Source: a virus. From it: DNA of 24,428 bases. This document shows positions 17,177 through 24,428 of the stretch, piece after piece. Position numbers and translations under genes: made by a program. Under the pieces are notes generated by a model that worked only from the letters and a program-made list of their open reading frames with translations, did not search any database and was not told the DNA's origin. Numbering within the stretch: position 1 is the stretch's first letter; each line of letters begins with the position of its first letter. The stretch covers positions 1 through 24,428 of IMG/VR virus record IMGVR_UViG_3300020213_000111. One strand, given 5' to 3'.

Positions 17177-17797
17177 TCAGCACTTATAGTGCCTCGGATG
17201 CCAGCCGCTCTGCGCTGATCGGGCGCAGCTAAATCCCGGGACCGCAGCCGTGAAGGCCGTGATATTGAGGGGAGCCCGTTGGCAGTAATTGGATACAGAG
17301 ATCGGCATGTCCCGCAAAAAAACCATATCCACGAGCTTGCGCTGAGCGCCCGTGAGCGAGATAAACGCCGCAGAGAACTTGTCGCGCTTGTTGGCGATGT
17401 CCTCGTAAAGCATCGCCAAATCCTCTGGCGTGCTGCCCAGCTGTGACCATTGCTCACAGATCGCCGAGGCGTTGCCTCGATCCCCCCATGAATCATATTC
17501 GTAAATGCGCTCGATCTTGTCCCCGTCGAGAGATGGTGTGATGTCATCCTGGTCTGGGTACCATTCCGATGGCTGTGGTCGCATAGCGTGCGTGATCTCA
17601 GACCGGATGCTGGTCATCGCCCAGGTCGAAAACCTGGATTTTGCCGCGTCGAATGTTCGGGCGGCTTTTGTCAGGCCGACACTGCCCGCGCCACACAGAT
17701 CCTCGAAATCAACCGAGCCGCCCCGATAGTCGGCGGCAACTACCTGCACGAGGTGCATGTGGTCGGTGATGAGTCTGTTTTGCTCTGCCTCGGTCAC
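17177..17797 (-). CDS. Phage-encoded sigma-70-type factor
   Basis: A 206-residue protein. Residues 8-70 match sigma region 2: LITDHMHLVQVVAADYRGG, then DFEDLCGAGSVGLTKAARTF and KSRFSTWAMTSIRSEI, which cover the core-binding and -10 recognition helices. Residues 147-163 (SLTGAQRKLVDMVFLRD) look like the start of region 4, but the expected helix-turn-helix is replaced by an unusual stretch with SVSNYCQRAPLNITAF, so -35 recognition may differ or be lost. It would redirect host RNA polymerase to phage promoters, probably late ones, as it lies at the boundary of early and late blocks. The start is GTG at 17797 with a G-run 5-7 bases before it; the GTG overlaps the stop of a possible upstream small frame. 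Confidence 0.82.
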   Translation of the reverse strand: MTEAEQNRLITDHMHLVQVVAADYRGGSVDFEDLCGAGSVGLTKAARTFDAAKSRFSTWAMTSIRSEITHAMRPQPSEWYPDQDDITPSLDGDKIERIYEYDSWGDRGNASAICEQWSQLGSTPEDLAMLYEDIANKRDKFSAAFISLTGAQRKLVDMVFLRDMPISVSNYCQRAPLNITAFTAAVPGFSCARSAQSGWHPRHYKC

Positions 17798-17987: not shown

Positions 17988-18104
17988 GGTGGTTGGTTAG
18001 CCGTCCAAGGCCGGTTGATCTGGATAGGTGGTTGGTTAGCCGTTCAAGGCCGGTTGATCTGGATAGGTGGTTGGTTAGCCGTTCAAGGCCGGTTGATCTG
18101 GATA
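17988..18104. repeat. Three tandem 39-bp repeats carrying a gene's 3' end and stop codon
   Basis: Units are at 17988-18026, 18027-18065 and 18066-18104. The last two are identical; the first differs by one base at 18005. On the minus strand each unit encodes the C-terminal tail YPDQPALNG (DG for NG in the first) followed by TAA, so the stop codon is repeated too. Only the 18066-18104 unit is translated as part of the gene. The unit length is 13 codons. Confidence 0.95.
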
Positions 18105-18563
18105 CCGATCGATGGTCTCCGCGCCTGGGAAAAGCTGTTTGACGGCACCGACAAACTTAAACGCCTCAACCGAGGCCATGAGCGCCGCGACCTCGTCCGG
18201 CGTAATCCAGATCACCCGATCGCCATGCAGTTCGCGAACCCGATCGACCGCGGCACGCTGATGCCCGATTGCAACCCGGCATCCCGTGCGCGAACACGAG
18301 CCGAGCATGTATGCGTCGTCCTCAGTGCCCGCCGCAGCCAAAGCCCGAACCGCTGCCGCGTAGCCGCGGACCATCCCGCCGCCTTGCAGCGCAATATCGT
18401 CATCGGTCCCGGTGACGCAGGCTGCGTCCCAAAACGAACGCTGTTCCGACAGCCGCCGGGACAGGTCGGCATCGACGCGCGCCAGTGCGCGCATGGTCCA
18501 GCGAGATTCGAACGCCGCCGCAGCGTCCGACACGGAAGAGAGCCAGTGCCGAAGGGCGCTCAC
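18075..18563 (-). CDS. Hypothetical phage protein
   Basis: Encodes 162 residues from GTG 18563, which has GGGG 7 bases upstream; GTG 18593 (ten codons earlier, no ribosome binding site) is the alternative. The protein is helical: ALRHWLSSVSDAAAAF, then WTMRALARVDADLSRRLSEQ, a Gly-rich MVRGYAAAVRALAAAG region, and CRVAIGHQRAAVDRVRELHG followed by WITPDEVAALMASVEAFKFV. The 'TPDEVAALM' segment resembles small phage proteins whose role is unknown. No catalytic motif is seen. The end of the gene lies in the tandem 39-bp repeat. It stands alone between two non-coding strips. Confidence 0.7.
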   Translation of the reverse strand: MSALRHWLSSVSDAAAAFESRWTMRALARVDADLSRRLSEQRSFWDAACVTGTDDDIALQGGGMVRGYAAAVRALAAAGTEDDAYMLGSCSRTGCRVAIGHQRAAVDRVRELHGDRVIWITPDEVAALMASVEAFKFVGAVKQLFPGAETIDRYPDQPALNG

Positions 18564-18593
18564 GACGCGACCCCGACAGCGAGGGAGCAGCAC

Positions 18594-18851
18594 TTTAAAC
18601 GTCGTTCCTTACTTACCCCTATACGCATACGTGTATGTGCGTATGTATCTAGTATATAACTTTTAGAAGAAAGAAGTGCTGTAGTGCTGCGCCGCCTCAC
18701 AACACGTTGTGTTGAAACGACAATTCCCGCTGCACGTTGCGCAGCACTTTGGCCGTAGCAGCACGTTGAAGTGCAGCGTAAAAAATGGCCGCAGCACTTT
18801 GAAAGCCCCAGCAGCACATTGAAAAGTGCCCCGCAACACATTGCTTTTAGC
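18594..18851. repeat. Iterated GCARCACNTTG motif array, candidate replication origin or operator region
   Basis: No gene lies in these 258 bases. On the plus strand an 11-base motif close to GCARCACNTTG occurs at 18699, 18729, 18741, 18758, 18791, 18811 and 18833 (the first two degenerate), often followed by GAAA and a GTGC that pairs back with GCAC. Reverse-oriented GTGCTG copies lie at 18676-18690. CAACAC-GTT-GTGTTG at 18700-18714 is a perfect inverted repeat. An AT-rich strip with an alternating purine-pyrimidine dyad (18621-18644) adjoins. The array abuts the 3' end of the primase-helicase gene, the place where phage origins are often found. An operator array is the alternative. Confidence 0.7.
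18621..18644. repeat. Imperfect palindrome with perfect core CATAC-GT-GTATG
   Basis: The core 18626-18637 is a perfect 5-bp-arm inverted repeat; the outer arms ATACG and CGTAT extend it with two unpaired bases. It is followed by the AT-rich ATGTATCTAGTATATAAC. On the minus strand TATACT in this strip resembles a -10 element for the hypothetical gene at 18075-18563, but no matching -35 is clear. It could equally be part of an origin region with the neighbouring motif array. Confidence 0.55.
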
Positions 18852-21410
18852 TCAAAAACGAGGTGCATTTTGATCCCCTTCAGTGGTCTGTTTCTCATCG
18901 TTGTGGAGCTTGTTGACTTCCGATTTTGAGAGTGCGGATCCCTTCGAACCGCCCTTTAGCTGCGGCCCCTGACTGTGCAAATCCCAAAGCTGAAGCCCTT
19001 CATCGGACAGCGCGAGACCGATCACATAGCGCCTGCCATTGTGTTCAGTCGTATCCGCGACCCACGGCGCGGCACTCCGAAGCCGCGGAAAGAACGCCCG
19101 TGCGCCGAACGCCCGTGCCTCATCGCCGTCCTGTTCGCGCTGCCAGCCGTGGTAGGCACACATCAGATCGGAGCGCGCGACCTTGGAATGGGCCGACCTG
19201 ACGACCGCAGTTCGAGACCATTCTCCGACGGGGTTATTGTCGTCCTTGAAGCGCTGGATAGCGCCGCGCACGGTCTCTGGTAGGTTGTAGGAGCCATGCT
19301 GCAACAGGGCTGTAAGGCCCTCTAAAGCCCAATTCAGAACGCCCGGCCCCTCTGTCTGCATCAGGTGCTGGCCCAGTGTCATCCCCCTGTTTACGTCTGC
19401 CTGTACCCTTGCTTTGTGAGCATCGGATTCGCTTACCTCATTTGTCATCTCGAGCACGATTGAGCGGTTGAATATCGCGTCGGATCGGTCGCGCGCCCGC
19501 GGCAGTGCGTTGGTCGTGAGCAACACCGGCAATTGTAGCTCGACACCCCGCACAGCGGGCCGATGCTTGCGCTCGATGTCGATCGGCTCGCCGGTCACGA
19601 TGGTTTTAAAGCGCTGCGGGTCTAGGTCGTCGCCCTCGTTAATGGCGTCGTCACGAATCCACGCCGCGGCCTCGTAAAGGGAAGACAGTCCGAAGCGGTC
19701 GGACACCTCGGACACTGATGGCGTCGCGATCGGGTCGCCGATCAATAGCCGGATAATGCGCGATAATTCGGTTTTGCCGGTACGGGATGGGCCAACTAGG
19801 ATCAGCGCTTTACGCTCTTCCCGACTCAGGTGAGCGACCGCAAGGGCGCTGCCTGCCCATTGCTGTACAACGGCGGTAAATCCGTCGCGCTCACCCTCGG
19901 CTCGGTCAGCAAACATGGACCGCAGCAGTGCCCGAAAGTTTGGCGCTACGGCACCTGGCTCGTATCGAGTGCCGATCTTGCGGCGCGCATACCACTGGGG
20001 GCCGTGCCCAAACCATTGCCGGTCCGAAATGCGCAGCACTCCGTTTTGACACACGATGACCGAGCCATCGGCCCACACAACATCGCGTTGAAACAGGGCT
20101 GGGTGTTCACACAGGCGCTTCCACGCCGCGGCCAGGTTGGCATTCTTGGCCGGCTCGCCAAGCGTCTCAAAGCCGCGCTGAATAAGTGTCAGAAGCCATT
20201 GCTGGTCGGCTGGCGACATGACGTGCCAGATGCCATCGGCGTATAGCCAGACCTCGCCCTCGGTAAGCAATAGGTCTTGACCAACGGCTTTAACCGCCTC
20301 GATCACGCCATCCGCGACAACATTTGCAATGTGTTGCCGATCAGGCGCAGTTGTCTTCTTCGCGCGCTCTTTGCGCTTTGCGGCAAGGTCCACGACACGG
20401 CCGCCGTTCACAACCTCTTCTTCGGCCCTGAGCTGGGCCACCGTGCGCTGGGCCGGCTGTGGATGCTTCTTCACCCACGCCTCGCACATGGCGCGCAACG
20501 CCTTTTCTTCCCGCTCCCAGTTCCACCGGCTGCCATACTCACCCGCTGCCGCCTTGGTGGCCTCGGTCAATGTTTCCACTACCTCGTCGATTGGTCGGCC
20601 GCTGTTCAGGAGGCTTGCGGACACAGCTAATTGTGTACTGTGAATCGAGCAATCCCCGCCGGCCATGTACGACATCGCGCTCAGGCGCTTCTCAATATCG
20701 AGCGGGGGCTTGAAGCTGAAGCCAAGGCGTGCGGCGGCGGCCAGGAACGGATTATCTTCGGGTGTCTGTTGCGGTCGGACATTGCGCAGAATGACCGGGC
20801 TTGTTTCCGCCAGCCATTCCTCAAGGTCGTCCAGTTCGTACCGCGTAGCGGTATGGGTCAATATTGAGACCGGCACGAACTTGTCAAACTTTGTGTTGTG
20901 GCTCCCCGGCAGCCGCATGAGGCGGGACACCTCACACACCGCGGGATCGCCGCCGACAAGATCAGCCAACAGGCGCAGCGCCGCCTCGATACGGTCGCGG
21001 TTCGCCTGCGTGTCCAGCGCCTCGGTCAGGAGCCAATAGGCGTGGAGCCCGTTGCCGGACGACACGACGATGCTGGGGGGCAAACGCAACGAGGCCAGAA
21101 GCCGCGGCACATCGGCTGGTGCAGTCACGATGCCTTTAAAATCGATGTCGGCATGCAGGCTGATTGTCTCGCTAGCTGTGTCTTTTGCGCGTCGCGGCCC
21201 CGTGATGGTGGAAACGCAGAAAAACAACCCGCGCTTGGGTCGATCCCACTTCGCGATAAATTTGGCAATGTCGGAGCCGTCACGGGTACTTACGTGGCGC
21301 TCGGATGGTTCGCTCGGGTCGTCCCGTTCATTTGCCAGCGAACACAAATAGACCGGTGACTCTGTCACCGGCCCGAAAAGGCTCGCAATAAATTCCCCCG
21401 CTGTTTTCAC
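18852..21410 (-). CDS. Primase-helicase (RepB-like primase N-terminus, D5/P4-type helicase C-terminus)
   Basis: An 852-residue protein. The N-terminal part is an archaeo-eukaryotic-type primase: LHADIDFKG (85-93) gives the DxD metal site (Asp88, Asp90), VVSSGNGLHAYW (115-126) the sxH motif with His123, and SRLMRLPGSHNTK (162-174) a conserved closing motif. The middle resembles the D5 N-terminal region (EGEVWLYADGIWHVM, then CQNGVLRI). The C-terminus is a superfamily 3 helicase: Walker A GPSRTGKT (540-547), acidic WIRDDA (584-589), sensor LLTTNALP (630-637) and an arginine finger near Arg649. It would prime and unwind phage DNA. The start is GTG 21410 with a weak, close G-rich site. It is followed by the iterated motif array. 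Confidence 0.9.
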   Translation of the reverse strand: MKTAGEFIASLFGPVTESPVYLCSLANERDDPSEPSERHVSTRDGSDIAKFIAKWDRPKRGLFFCVSTITGPRRAKDTASETISLHADIDFKGIVTAPADVPRLLASLRLPPSIVVSSGNGLHAYWLLTEALDTQANRDRIEAALRLLADLVGGDPAVCEVSRLMRLPGSHNTKFDKFVPVSILTHTATRYELDDLEEWLAETSPVILRNVRPQQTPEDNPFLAAAARLGFSFKPPLDIEKRLSAMSYMAGGDCSIHSTQLAVSASLLNSGRPIDEVVETLTEATKAAAGEYGSRWNWEREEKALRAMCEAWVKKHPQPAQRTVAQLRAEEEVVNGGRVVDLAAKRKERAKKTTAPDRQHIANVVADGVIEAVKAVGQDLLLTEGEVWLYADGIWHVMSPADQQWLLTLIQRGFETLGEPAKNANLAAAWKRLCEHPALFQRDVVWADGSVIVCQNGVLRISDRQWFGHGPQWYARRKIGTRYEPGAVAPNFRALLRSMFADRAEGERDGFTAVVQQWAGSALAVAHLSREERKALILVGPSRTGKTELSRIIRLLIGDPIATPSVSEVSDRFGLSSLYEAAAWIRDDAINEGDDLDPQRFKTIVTGEPIDIERKHRPAVRGVELQLPVLLTTNALPRARDRSDAIFNRSIVLEMTNEVSESDAHKARVQADVNRGMTLGQHLMQTEGPGVLNWALEGLTALLQHGSYNLPETVRGAIQRFKDDNNPVGEWSRTAVVRSAHSKVARSDLMCAYHGWQREQDGDEARAFGARAFFPRLRSAAPWVADTTEHNGRRYVIGLALSDEGLQLWDLHSQGPQLKGGSKGSALSKSEVNKLHNDEKQTTEGDQNAPRF

Positions 21411-21511: not shown

Positions 21512-22192
21512 TTAGAACCGCGCGCTCTTGCCGCCGTTCTTGGCCTTCGCGGCCGGAGCGGCGGTTTCTTCTTCGGCGGCGATGTCCGCGAACGAAGATT
21601 TTCCGGCCCAACCAAACACGGACAAGACCGGCGTGAATATCTTGCCGTATTTGTCGTGGACATAATTAGAGGCTTGCAGTTCAACGATTGGGTATTCATC
21701 CGGACGCTGACGCATCTGTTTGCCGTACAACTTGCAAAGCTCGCCCACGGCGCTGATGCCCGACTTGGACGATGTGGCGTAAGTGTAAAGCTGGTCGCCG
21801 CTCTCTTCCTTCAACACCAGATAGTTAGTGAGCTGCCATGGATCCTTGGGCTTGCCATTGTCGATTTCCCAAAGGCTTTCGTCATTGTCGCCCATTTCAC
21901 TGCGACGCGCCGGCTTGTGACCATCGGCAACCTTGCCCATGATCTGTTCAGTCGGTTTGCTGTCTTCCCAGCGAACCCAGCCAATGAGAAGTTCATCCAT
22001 ATTGGCGATGAGCTTTGTGCCCTTCTCCAGTTCGGTCTCGTTGCCCGATACCCACTCACCAAACTTGGTGAACTTCAGGATGTCTCCGACGATGCTCTTT
22101 TGCGATGCGGCATTGCCGTAATCCTCAAACGCATTGCCGCCGGGTACGGTAACGGCTGTCCCCTGCCTGCTGATTTCTGCTACTTCGTTCAT
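21512..22192 (-). CDS. Conserved phage protein, possible single-strand DNA-binding role
   Basis: Encodes 226 residues from ATG 22192, with AAGGA 8 bases upstream; a GTG two codons earlier is too close to that site. Segments such as LKFTKFGEWVSG, LIANMDELLIGWVRWEDSKP, RSEMGDNDESLWE, PWQLTNYLVLKEESGDQLYT and MRQRPDEYPIVELQASNY are ones I associate with a conserved phage protein family found beside exonuclease and primase genes. The core is beta-rich and the tail (AAEEETAAPAAKAKNGGKS) is low-complexity, as in many single-strand-binding proteins, but no OB-fold motif can be proven by eye. Context between a Cas4-like nuclease and a primase supports a replication or recombination role. Confidence 0.75.
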   Translation of the reverse strand: MNEVAEISRQGTAVTVPGGNAFEDYGNAASQKSIVGDILKFTKFGEWVSGNETELEKGTKLIANMDELLIGWVRWEDSKPTEQIMGKVADGHKPARRSEMGDNDESLWEIDNGKPKDPWQLTNYLVLKEESGDQLYTYATSSKSGISAVGELCKLYGKQMRQRPDEYPIVELQASNYVHDKYGKIFTPVLSVFGWAGKSSFADIAAEEETAAPAAKAKNGGKSARF

Positions 22193-22203
22193 GTCCACTT
22201 TCC

Positions 22204-23705: not shown

Positions 23706-24049
23706 TCCAACATCCCCCATGCGCCGACCTGCGCCATTCCTTCTTCGACCGAGCGAGCCATGGCCCAGCGATGACCCAGCGATTCCAGTTTGGTCCGCAT
23801 TCCGATTTGCTCTTCAGAAAGACGGCCAACATTGTTTTTGAGTTCGAGCCATGCGACGCCGTTTTCATCGGCAAAGAGCAAATCAGGCATGCCAGGTCGC
23901 AAGCCTTCGGCCTTCATTTGCTTGGCAACGACCCAGTTGCGTAGCCCACCATTCGGGATGGAGCAGAACACAACCTCAGGTCGGATGCTGACCTTTAATT
24001 CACTGACCAGATCGCACTGGATTTTGTGCTCGGATGGATGCTCTCTCAC
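23702..24049 (-). CDS. VRR-NUC domain nuclease
   Basis: A 115-residue single-domain protein. CSIPNGGLRN (29-38), GLRPGMPDLLF (49-59) with Asp56, and WLELKN (67-72) with Glu69 and Lys71 give the PD-(D/E)XK core of the VRR-NUC family, and GRLSEEQ (75-81) is its usual follow-on. These small phage enzymes are thought to act on branched or flapped DNA, as Holliday-junction-type or flap nucleases. The start is GTG 24049, overlapping the stop of the DnaA-like gene as GTGA. Family call is firm; substrate is not known. Confidence 0.87.
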   Translation of the reverse strand: MREHPSEHKIQCDLVSELKVSIRPEVVFCSIPNGGLRNWVVAKQMKAEGLRPGMPDLLFADENGVAWLELKNNVGRLSEEQIGMRTKLESLGHRWAMARSVEEGMAQVGAWGMLE

Positions 24050-24428
24050 GACCCAATCTCTTCCTTCATCTGGTCAAACCGATTGCGGAAGGCCTCCTCC
24101 GTAAGTAGTGGCTTCATTCGCGTTCGCGCGTTGATGACGCAGGTATGATCTCGGTTAAGATAGCGTCCGATGGTGTGGAGGGAAAAGTCCGTCATTTCGA
24201 GAAACAGATTTGCTGCGACGAAGCGCGGAGTGATGATGTGATCTTTGCGAGACGGTCCGCAAATGTCGGTAATGGTCACGTTAAATTCGTCGGATACGAC
24301 CCATAGAATGCGCCGGGCAATCGGCATGTTCGAGAACGGACGGCCCTTGGTTTCGTATTGGCGGCGCTTGATGACGCAAGTGAGATTAGCTGCGGGCTTT
24401 GCTGCGGGCTTTGCTGCGGGCTTTGCTG
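24046..24428 (-). CDS. DnaA domain IV (DNA-binding) protein, 5' end outside window
   Basis: The frame is open to the window edge, giving at least 126 residues. The last about 90 are the DnaA C-terminal DNA-binding domain: ILWVVSDEFNVTITDICG, then PSRKDHIITPRFVAANLF and SLHTIGRYLNRDHTCVINA, whose RDHTCV corresponds to the DnaA signature RDHTTV (Thr to Cys). The AAA+ domain is not visible. Upstream, in frame, come NLTCVIKRRQYETKGRPFSN and a linker of AKPA repeats, with no start codon before the ATG at 24327, which itself lacks a ribosome binding site, so the gene most likely starts outside the window. It could bind DnaA-box-like sites to open the phage origin, block host initiation, or act as a regulator. 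Confidence 0.82.
   Translation of the reverse strand, partial: AKPAAKPAAKPAANLTCVIKRRQYETKGRPFSNMPIARRILWVVSDEFNVTITDICGPSRKDHIITPRFVAANLFLEMTDFSLHTIGRYLNRDHTCVINARTRMKPLLTEEAFRNRFDQMKEEIGS
24389..24428. repeat. 12-bp tandem repeat encoding AKPA units, runs to window edge
   Basis: Three perfect copies of GCTGCGGGCTTT (24389-24424) plus four bases of a fourth reach the end of the window. On the minus strand they encode repeated Ala-Lys-Pro-Ala, a typical flexible basic linker. The true length of the array is unknown. Confidence 0.95.

Follow-up and report, generated by a model that had tools for sequence, protein, structure and literature searches.

The stretch of DNA analysed here (the window) is a 24,428-base IMG/VR virus record, a fragment of a tailed phage whose recognisable genes lie on the minus strand and for which no DNA-level match to deposited phages was found. 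In transcription order its replication part opens with a DnaA domain IV protein, and packaging and head genes follow the sigma-70 region 2 protein. The genes around the feature under study are as follows:

24327-24046, minus strand: DnaA domain IV protein, first in the transcription order of the replication part
between the DnaA domain IV protein and an unknown gene, minus strand: VRR-NUC nuclease
between the VRR-NUC nuclease and the RecE-like exonuclease, minus strand: unknown gene
23289-22204, minus strand: RecE-like exonuclease, upstream of a small conserved protein
22198-21512, minus strand: small conserved protein, directly before the primase-helicase
21410-18852, minus strand: primase-helicase (Pfam and PHROG matches), the proposed initiator, after which the array comes next
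18563-18075, minus strand: gene X, a conserved neighbour with a GTG start at 18563; elsewhere the array is present without it
17177-17797, minus strand: sigma-70 region 2 protein, placed after gene X and before the packaging genes

The DnaA domain IV protein (24046-24327) is free-standing, without an AAA+ part, and was otherwise seen only in the relative L017. A 12-base tandem repeat (GCTGCGGGCTTT, 3.3 copies) sits in the frame upstream of it at 24389-24428, the very end of the record and perhaps the point at which assembly ended. A 39-base tandem repeat (GGTGGTTGGTTAGCCGTTCAAGGCCGGTTGATCTGGATA), in three near-perfect copies at 17988-18104, overlaps the 3' end of gene X, and the sigma-70 region 2 protein (17177-17797) was found in none of the relative stretches examined. 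The small protein encoded upstream of the primase-helicase (21512-22198) and the primase-helicase itself both have an -RF terminus in most relatives, and these tails may dock the same partner. The tail of the upstream protein reads DLDDDIPF in L047 and EIPF in L028, which we take to resemble the tip of bacterial SSB, and the gene may encode an SSB.

The array that follows the primase-helicase gene consists of ten 7-base sites, seven direct and three inverted, spanning 18587-18839 around the AT-richest strip of the window. Its elements, listed from the primase-helicase side, are:

18833-18839, plus strand: direct site 1, GCAACAC, with matching sites in near relatives
18811-18817, plus strand: direct site 2, GCAGCAC, at the same offset in L007, L020 and L084
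18791-18797, plus strand: direct site 3, GCAGCAC, at the same offset in L007, L020, L084 and L022
18771-18777, minus strand: inverted site, a GCTGCAC variant, at the same offset in L007, L020, L008, L017 and L022
18758-18764, plus strand: direct site 4, GCAGCAC, at an offset shared with most near relatives
18741-18747, plus strand: direct site 5, GCAGCAC, an exact match to the longer motif
18729-18735, plus strand: direct site 6, a GCTGCAC variant, at the same offset in L007, L008, L017, L020 and L084
18676-18690, minus strand: inverted tandem anchor pair, GCAGCAC (18684-18690) and ACAGCAC (18676-18682) at an 8-base step
18599-18675, no strand: AT-rich strip, a candidate melting element, which begins after the anchor pair with a CTTCTTTCTTCTAAAA tract (minus strand) that is conserved in A2
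18587-18593, plus strand: lone distal direct site, GCAGCAC, just upstream of the gene X start, at offset 253-275 in most near relatives

The longer motif GCARCACNTTG is matched exactly on the plus strand at 18741, 18758, 18791, 18811 and 18833, and near copies at 18587 (GCAGCACTTTA) and 18729 (GCTGCACGTTG) bring the direct total to seven. Elsewhere in the 24.4 kb record a single exact match occurs, at 20327 on the minus strand. One 11-mer occurs eight times with two mismatches or fewer, where 200 dinucleotide-preserving shuffles gave three at most; the array is neither a chance cluster nor scattered over the genome. An earlier note, made from the letters of the window, had described about seven direct copies with reverse copies next to the primase-helicase gene and placed them at 18594-18851. 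The repeats are real, the reverse copies starting at 18676, 18684 and 18771, but the array begins at 18587, so a start at 18594 cuts a copy. The AT-rich strip described in the same note is also borne out, with an AT content of 63% over 18599-18673 compared with 42% for the window and with best 50-mers (70%) that tie for the window's AT-richest. This strip is flanked on both sides, by the anchor pair on one and by the single distal site on the other. The CAACAC-GTT-GTGTTG inverted repeat is present at 18700-18714 as claimed; this 15-base palindrome is not conserved in relatives and is therefore probably incidental. GC skew shows no switch at 18.6 kb, a test that says little because the window is a fragment, and no known Rfam RNA family matches the region. 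A stop-free frame (18560-18898, minus strand) runs through the array from the primase stop to gene X in the window and in most near relatives, with a chance probability of 3-7% in each of four tested; as a gene it was rejected, its peptide being unconserved beyond close kin.

Relatives were collected by primase-helicase searches and comprise IMG/VR contigs and two alphaproteobacterial genome contigs, from an Afipia MAG and Bradyrhizobium elkanii; one locus, L143, duplicates L045. A family-wide genome search returned, beyond the Afipia contig, only distant helicases, and no earlier description for this phage group was found in the open-access literature. In nearly every checkable relative an array lies at the 3' end of the primase-helicase gene or just beyond it, the same place as in the window, and each phage or small group has a word of its own:

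GCAGCAC: the window, L020, L023
ACAGCAC: L009, L010, L022, L084
GCAACAC: L007, L008, L014, L017, L027, L052, L103
GTGGCAC: L011
GGGGCAC: L028
AGGACAC: L030
AGGGCAC: L104
GCGTCAC: L105, L106, L108, L109
GCGGCAC: L110, L111
ATGACAG, ATGACAC, GTGACAC, GTGACCG, GTGACCA, GTGACAA: phages of the second helicase clade

These words come from exact k-mer counts and from tables of sites, since in several loci a motif search by expectation-maximisation strayed to palindromes or A-rich tracts; the array of L022 is mixed, and the words of L012 and L025 are poorly defined. Type-A words keep the CAC half in nearly all cases and vary in the other four bases. The sites fall at offsets of 12, 34, 54-55, 73-74, 87-88, 116, 161, 169 and 258 from the primase stop, and among close relatives these offsets agree to within a base or two despite different words. 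The anchor pair with its 8-base step is found in nearly all type-A relatives. The inverted tandem copies at offsets 161/169 lead directly into a CTTCTTT(C)TCTTAAAA tract, which is conserved. The array of many second-clade phages starts inside the 3' end of the primase gene and thus encodes part of the protein's tail. Within single genomes the arrays are homogeneous: across 13 phages, 107 of 125 sites carry their own genome's commonest base at position 4, a count that reached at most 85 in 20,000 shuffles.

The primase-helicase combines a RepB_primase-like N-terminal part with a D5_N/DUF5906 SF3 helicase and a C-terminal winged helix, and both sequence and fold comparison identify the SaPI5 primase-helicase (PDB 7ola) as its closest solved structure. 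Among full-length relatives the N-terminal half is 31-78% identical to that of the window, and the other half is of two types. Comparison of recombinants places the word with the helicase/C-terminal half, with which it travels. In L024, the N half is window-like (66/68%), the helicase half is type-B (25-28%) and the word is type-B as well.

Within the type-A proteins, two residues follow the word. In a column scan done after the pattern had first been seen by eye, residue 788 is the only one of 835 columns that uniformly separates CAGCAC phages (T in all six) from CAACAC phages (Q in all seven), and residue 790 is the only one of 562 that separates words beginning with G (H in all ten) from those beginning with A (A, D, A and D). 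The window has T at 788 and H at 790. In the predicted C-terminal winged helix, 788 closes the first wing strand and 790, two positions further on, falls in the wing turn; in the modelled piece they are residues 351 and 353, with strands at 348-351 and 357-364. The matching wing column of the second clade holds N in eight of nine GTGAC phages and in none of seven ATGAC phages, L054 being the exception. Of the loci found afterwards, L152 and L158 fit and L146 is mixed. Word labels are not clustered on the helicase tree, and the sisters L007 and L020 (100/99) carry opposite words and opposite residues. Two independent switches are well supported and four appear on the best tree, all of them concordant; with so few, a sign test is ruled out and the weight rests on the column scan. 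Recombination, homogeneity and covariation apparently point alike to the helicase/C-terminal half as the predicted reader of the word.

For a C-terminal Rep domain that binds iterons, the covariation of wing and word is strong, and one clade (L105-L111) misfits. The primase-helicases of this set are ~90% identical and face either GCGTCAC or GCGGCAC at homologous sites, most of which have switched; a C-terminal domain change matching the L109/L111 word switch was sought and not found. The arrays include mosaics, with the L111 anchor still reading GCGTCAC and the last site of L105, L106 and L108 reading GCGGCAC. L105, L106 and L108-L111 are close phages caught in the act of changing their word, with site positions unchanged. 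The protein may accept both words in this set, the arrays may be in flux, or the word may be selected by something else as well.

Taken with its setting, the region 18587-18851 is probably an iteron-type replication origin, and the adjoining primase-helicase its initiator, in the manner of the SaPI/PICI Pri-Rep-ori systems. The earlier note had favoured an iteron-type origin, and this remains the best reading, given an array kept in relatives, an adjoining AT-rich strip and an SF3 primase-helicase akin to that of SaPI5. Two outcomes that the note had named as refuting it were looked for and did not appear: relatives do have the array, and copies of its motif are not spread at random. In the SaPI and SCCmec relatives of the SaPI5 primase-helicase, an iteron origin lies directly downstream of the rep gene, and the C-terminal domain of Cch2 binds its iteron origin, the iteron being AAGTG (PMC7581432). 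Gram-negative PICIs have several Pri-Rep alleles, and their AT-rich region is flanked by two iteron sets (PMC6092414). The window resembles these systems (SaPI5, 7ola; E. coli PICIs) in fusing a primase to an SF3 helicase with a C-terminal winged helix, in placing iterons directly after the rep gene (as in its relatives), in having iteron sets on both sides of an AT-rich region and in the existence of several Rep alleles. It differs in that the carriers are tailed phages of alphaproteobacteria-like hosts and not satellites, the N part is RepB-type, about ten short sites stand at fixed offsets, and the words are re-spelled from phage to phage. SCCmec Cch2 is likewise a D5_N/SF3 helicase with short direct repeats just downstream of its gene, and its AAGTG iteron has a likeness in the window's sites, which read AAGTGCTGC; it lacks a fused primase and has only three iterons.

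More distant parallels share the initiator architecture or its behaviour. P4 alpha, with ori/crr, joins primase, helicase and winged helix in one initiator and binds origin repeats, as described in PMC4234260; its primase, unlike that of the window, is of the Toprim type. pRN1 ORF904 and the BIP-1/BPP-1 replication protein combine an AEP-type primase, an SF3 helicase and a winged helix with an origin 3' of the gene, although that origin has been described as a stem-loop rather than as iterons: for AEP-SF3-winged-helix proteins, that of Bordetella phage BIP-1 among them, the authors of the pRN1 work proposed recognition of a stem-loop located 3' of the gene (PMC4234260). In BPP-1 (L141, 1101-1215), the DNA downstream of the primase has tandem TTTGCCTCG words on one side of an AT-rich dyad and reversed copies on the other, so an iteron reading may hold for this phage as well. 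In the V. cholerae PLEs, RepA varies along with its iterons and replication requires a cognate pair; the change may be driven by a nuclease directed at the origin, ICP1 Odn (PMC8263062). Such joint variation of initiator and iterons is seen in the present phage group as well, whereas the PLE initiator is unrelated, of the RepA_N type, and is paired with three iterons of about 30 bp.

An array of binding sites would fit a regulatory role as readily as an origin, and the earlier note had offered operators for the 18075-18563 gene as its alternative. The primase-helicase or another phage protein would then control gene X and the late genes from this array, which lies between the early and late blocks, and has one conserved site just upstream of gene X; in addition, a TATAGGGG-like tract is conserved in near relatives. 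This reading is unlikely. It is weakened by several array-keeping phages in which gene X was not detected beside the array (L028, L047, L050, L060, L068 and L074). The region shows no sigma-70 promoter-like site, the array is tied to the primase-helicase and not to what comes after it, and the SaPI/Cch2 precedent speaks for an origin.

It is distinctly improbable that the word is read by another protein (the DnaA domain IV protein, the gene X product or a host factor), the wing match being coincidence or linkage. The window does encode a DnaA C-terminal domain protein, which the earlier note had named as a possible binder, and the C-terminus of the primase-helicase shows no change to go with the L109/L111 word switch. 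However, among the stretches examined only the window and L017 have such a DnaA domain protein, which is therefore not a general binder. Neither gene X nor the upstream gene nor the exonuclease contains a uniform separating column, a fixed host factor would leave the private word of each phage unexplained, and close sisters with opposite words differ in the wing residue too. That a single-strand stem-loop is the functional element and the words only its stems, as proposed for pRN1/BIP-1 (PMC4234260), is very improbable: inverted copies can pair, and alifold pairs direct sites with the anchor pair, some changed on both sides, but those paired changes follow from the shared word itself, the fold of the window array is only a little better than that of shuffles (z -1.76), the alifold covariation term is about zero, and pairing needs no common word among the direct copies, yet all carry one.

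An iteron origin of a known kind is therefore the most likely identity of the array. In the mechanism that we infer, from binding through melting and priming to origin activity, the C-terminal winged helix would bind the repeated 7-base word and gather helicase subunits both at the array and at the tandem anchor pair. Melting by the SF3 helicase would follow, in the AT-rich strip that separates the anchor pair from the lone distal site, and the first primers would be laid by the primase half. In type-A phages, residues 788 and 790 track two of the four variable word bases. Words could change by two routes, either with many sites changed coordinately together with the wing or with the helicase half swapped along with its array. 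Tentatively, the wing may be a small evolvable code in which 788 sets the base beside the constant CAC (T selecting G, Q selecting A) and 790 the first base (H selecting G), most origin sites being re-spelled to match. The resulting replicons would be mutually incompatible, perhaps escaping replication interference or origin-directed nucleases.

The added interest of this origin lies in the re-spelling of sites at fixed positions and in the two wing residues that follow the word. How initiator and origin change their joint specificity, with many sites changing at once, is an old question for iteron replicons. The phage group offers a graded natural series for it, from re-spelled arrays at fixed positions through mosaics (L111, L105) to swapped helicase-array modules, and the two candidate residues are testable by single mutations. 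The arrays also offer a way of finding origins in phages with this primase-helicase type, and what has been proposed as a stem-loop origin in related phages may turn out to be an array of words.
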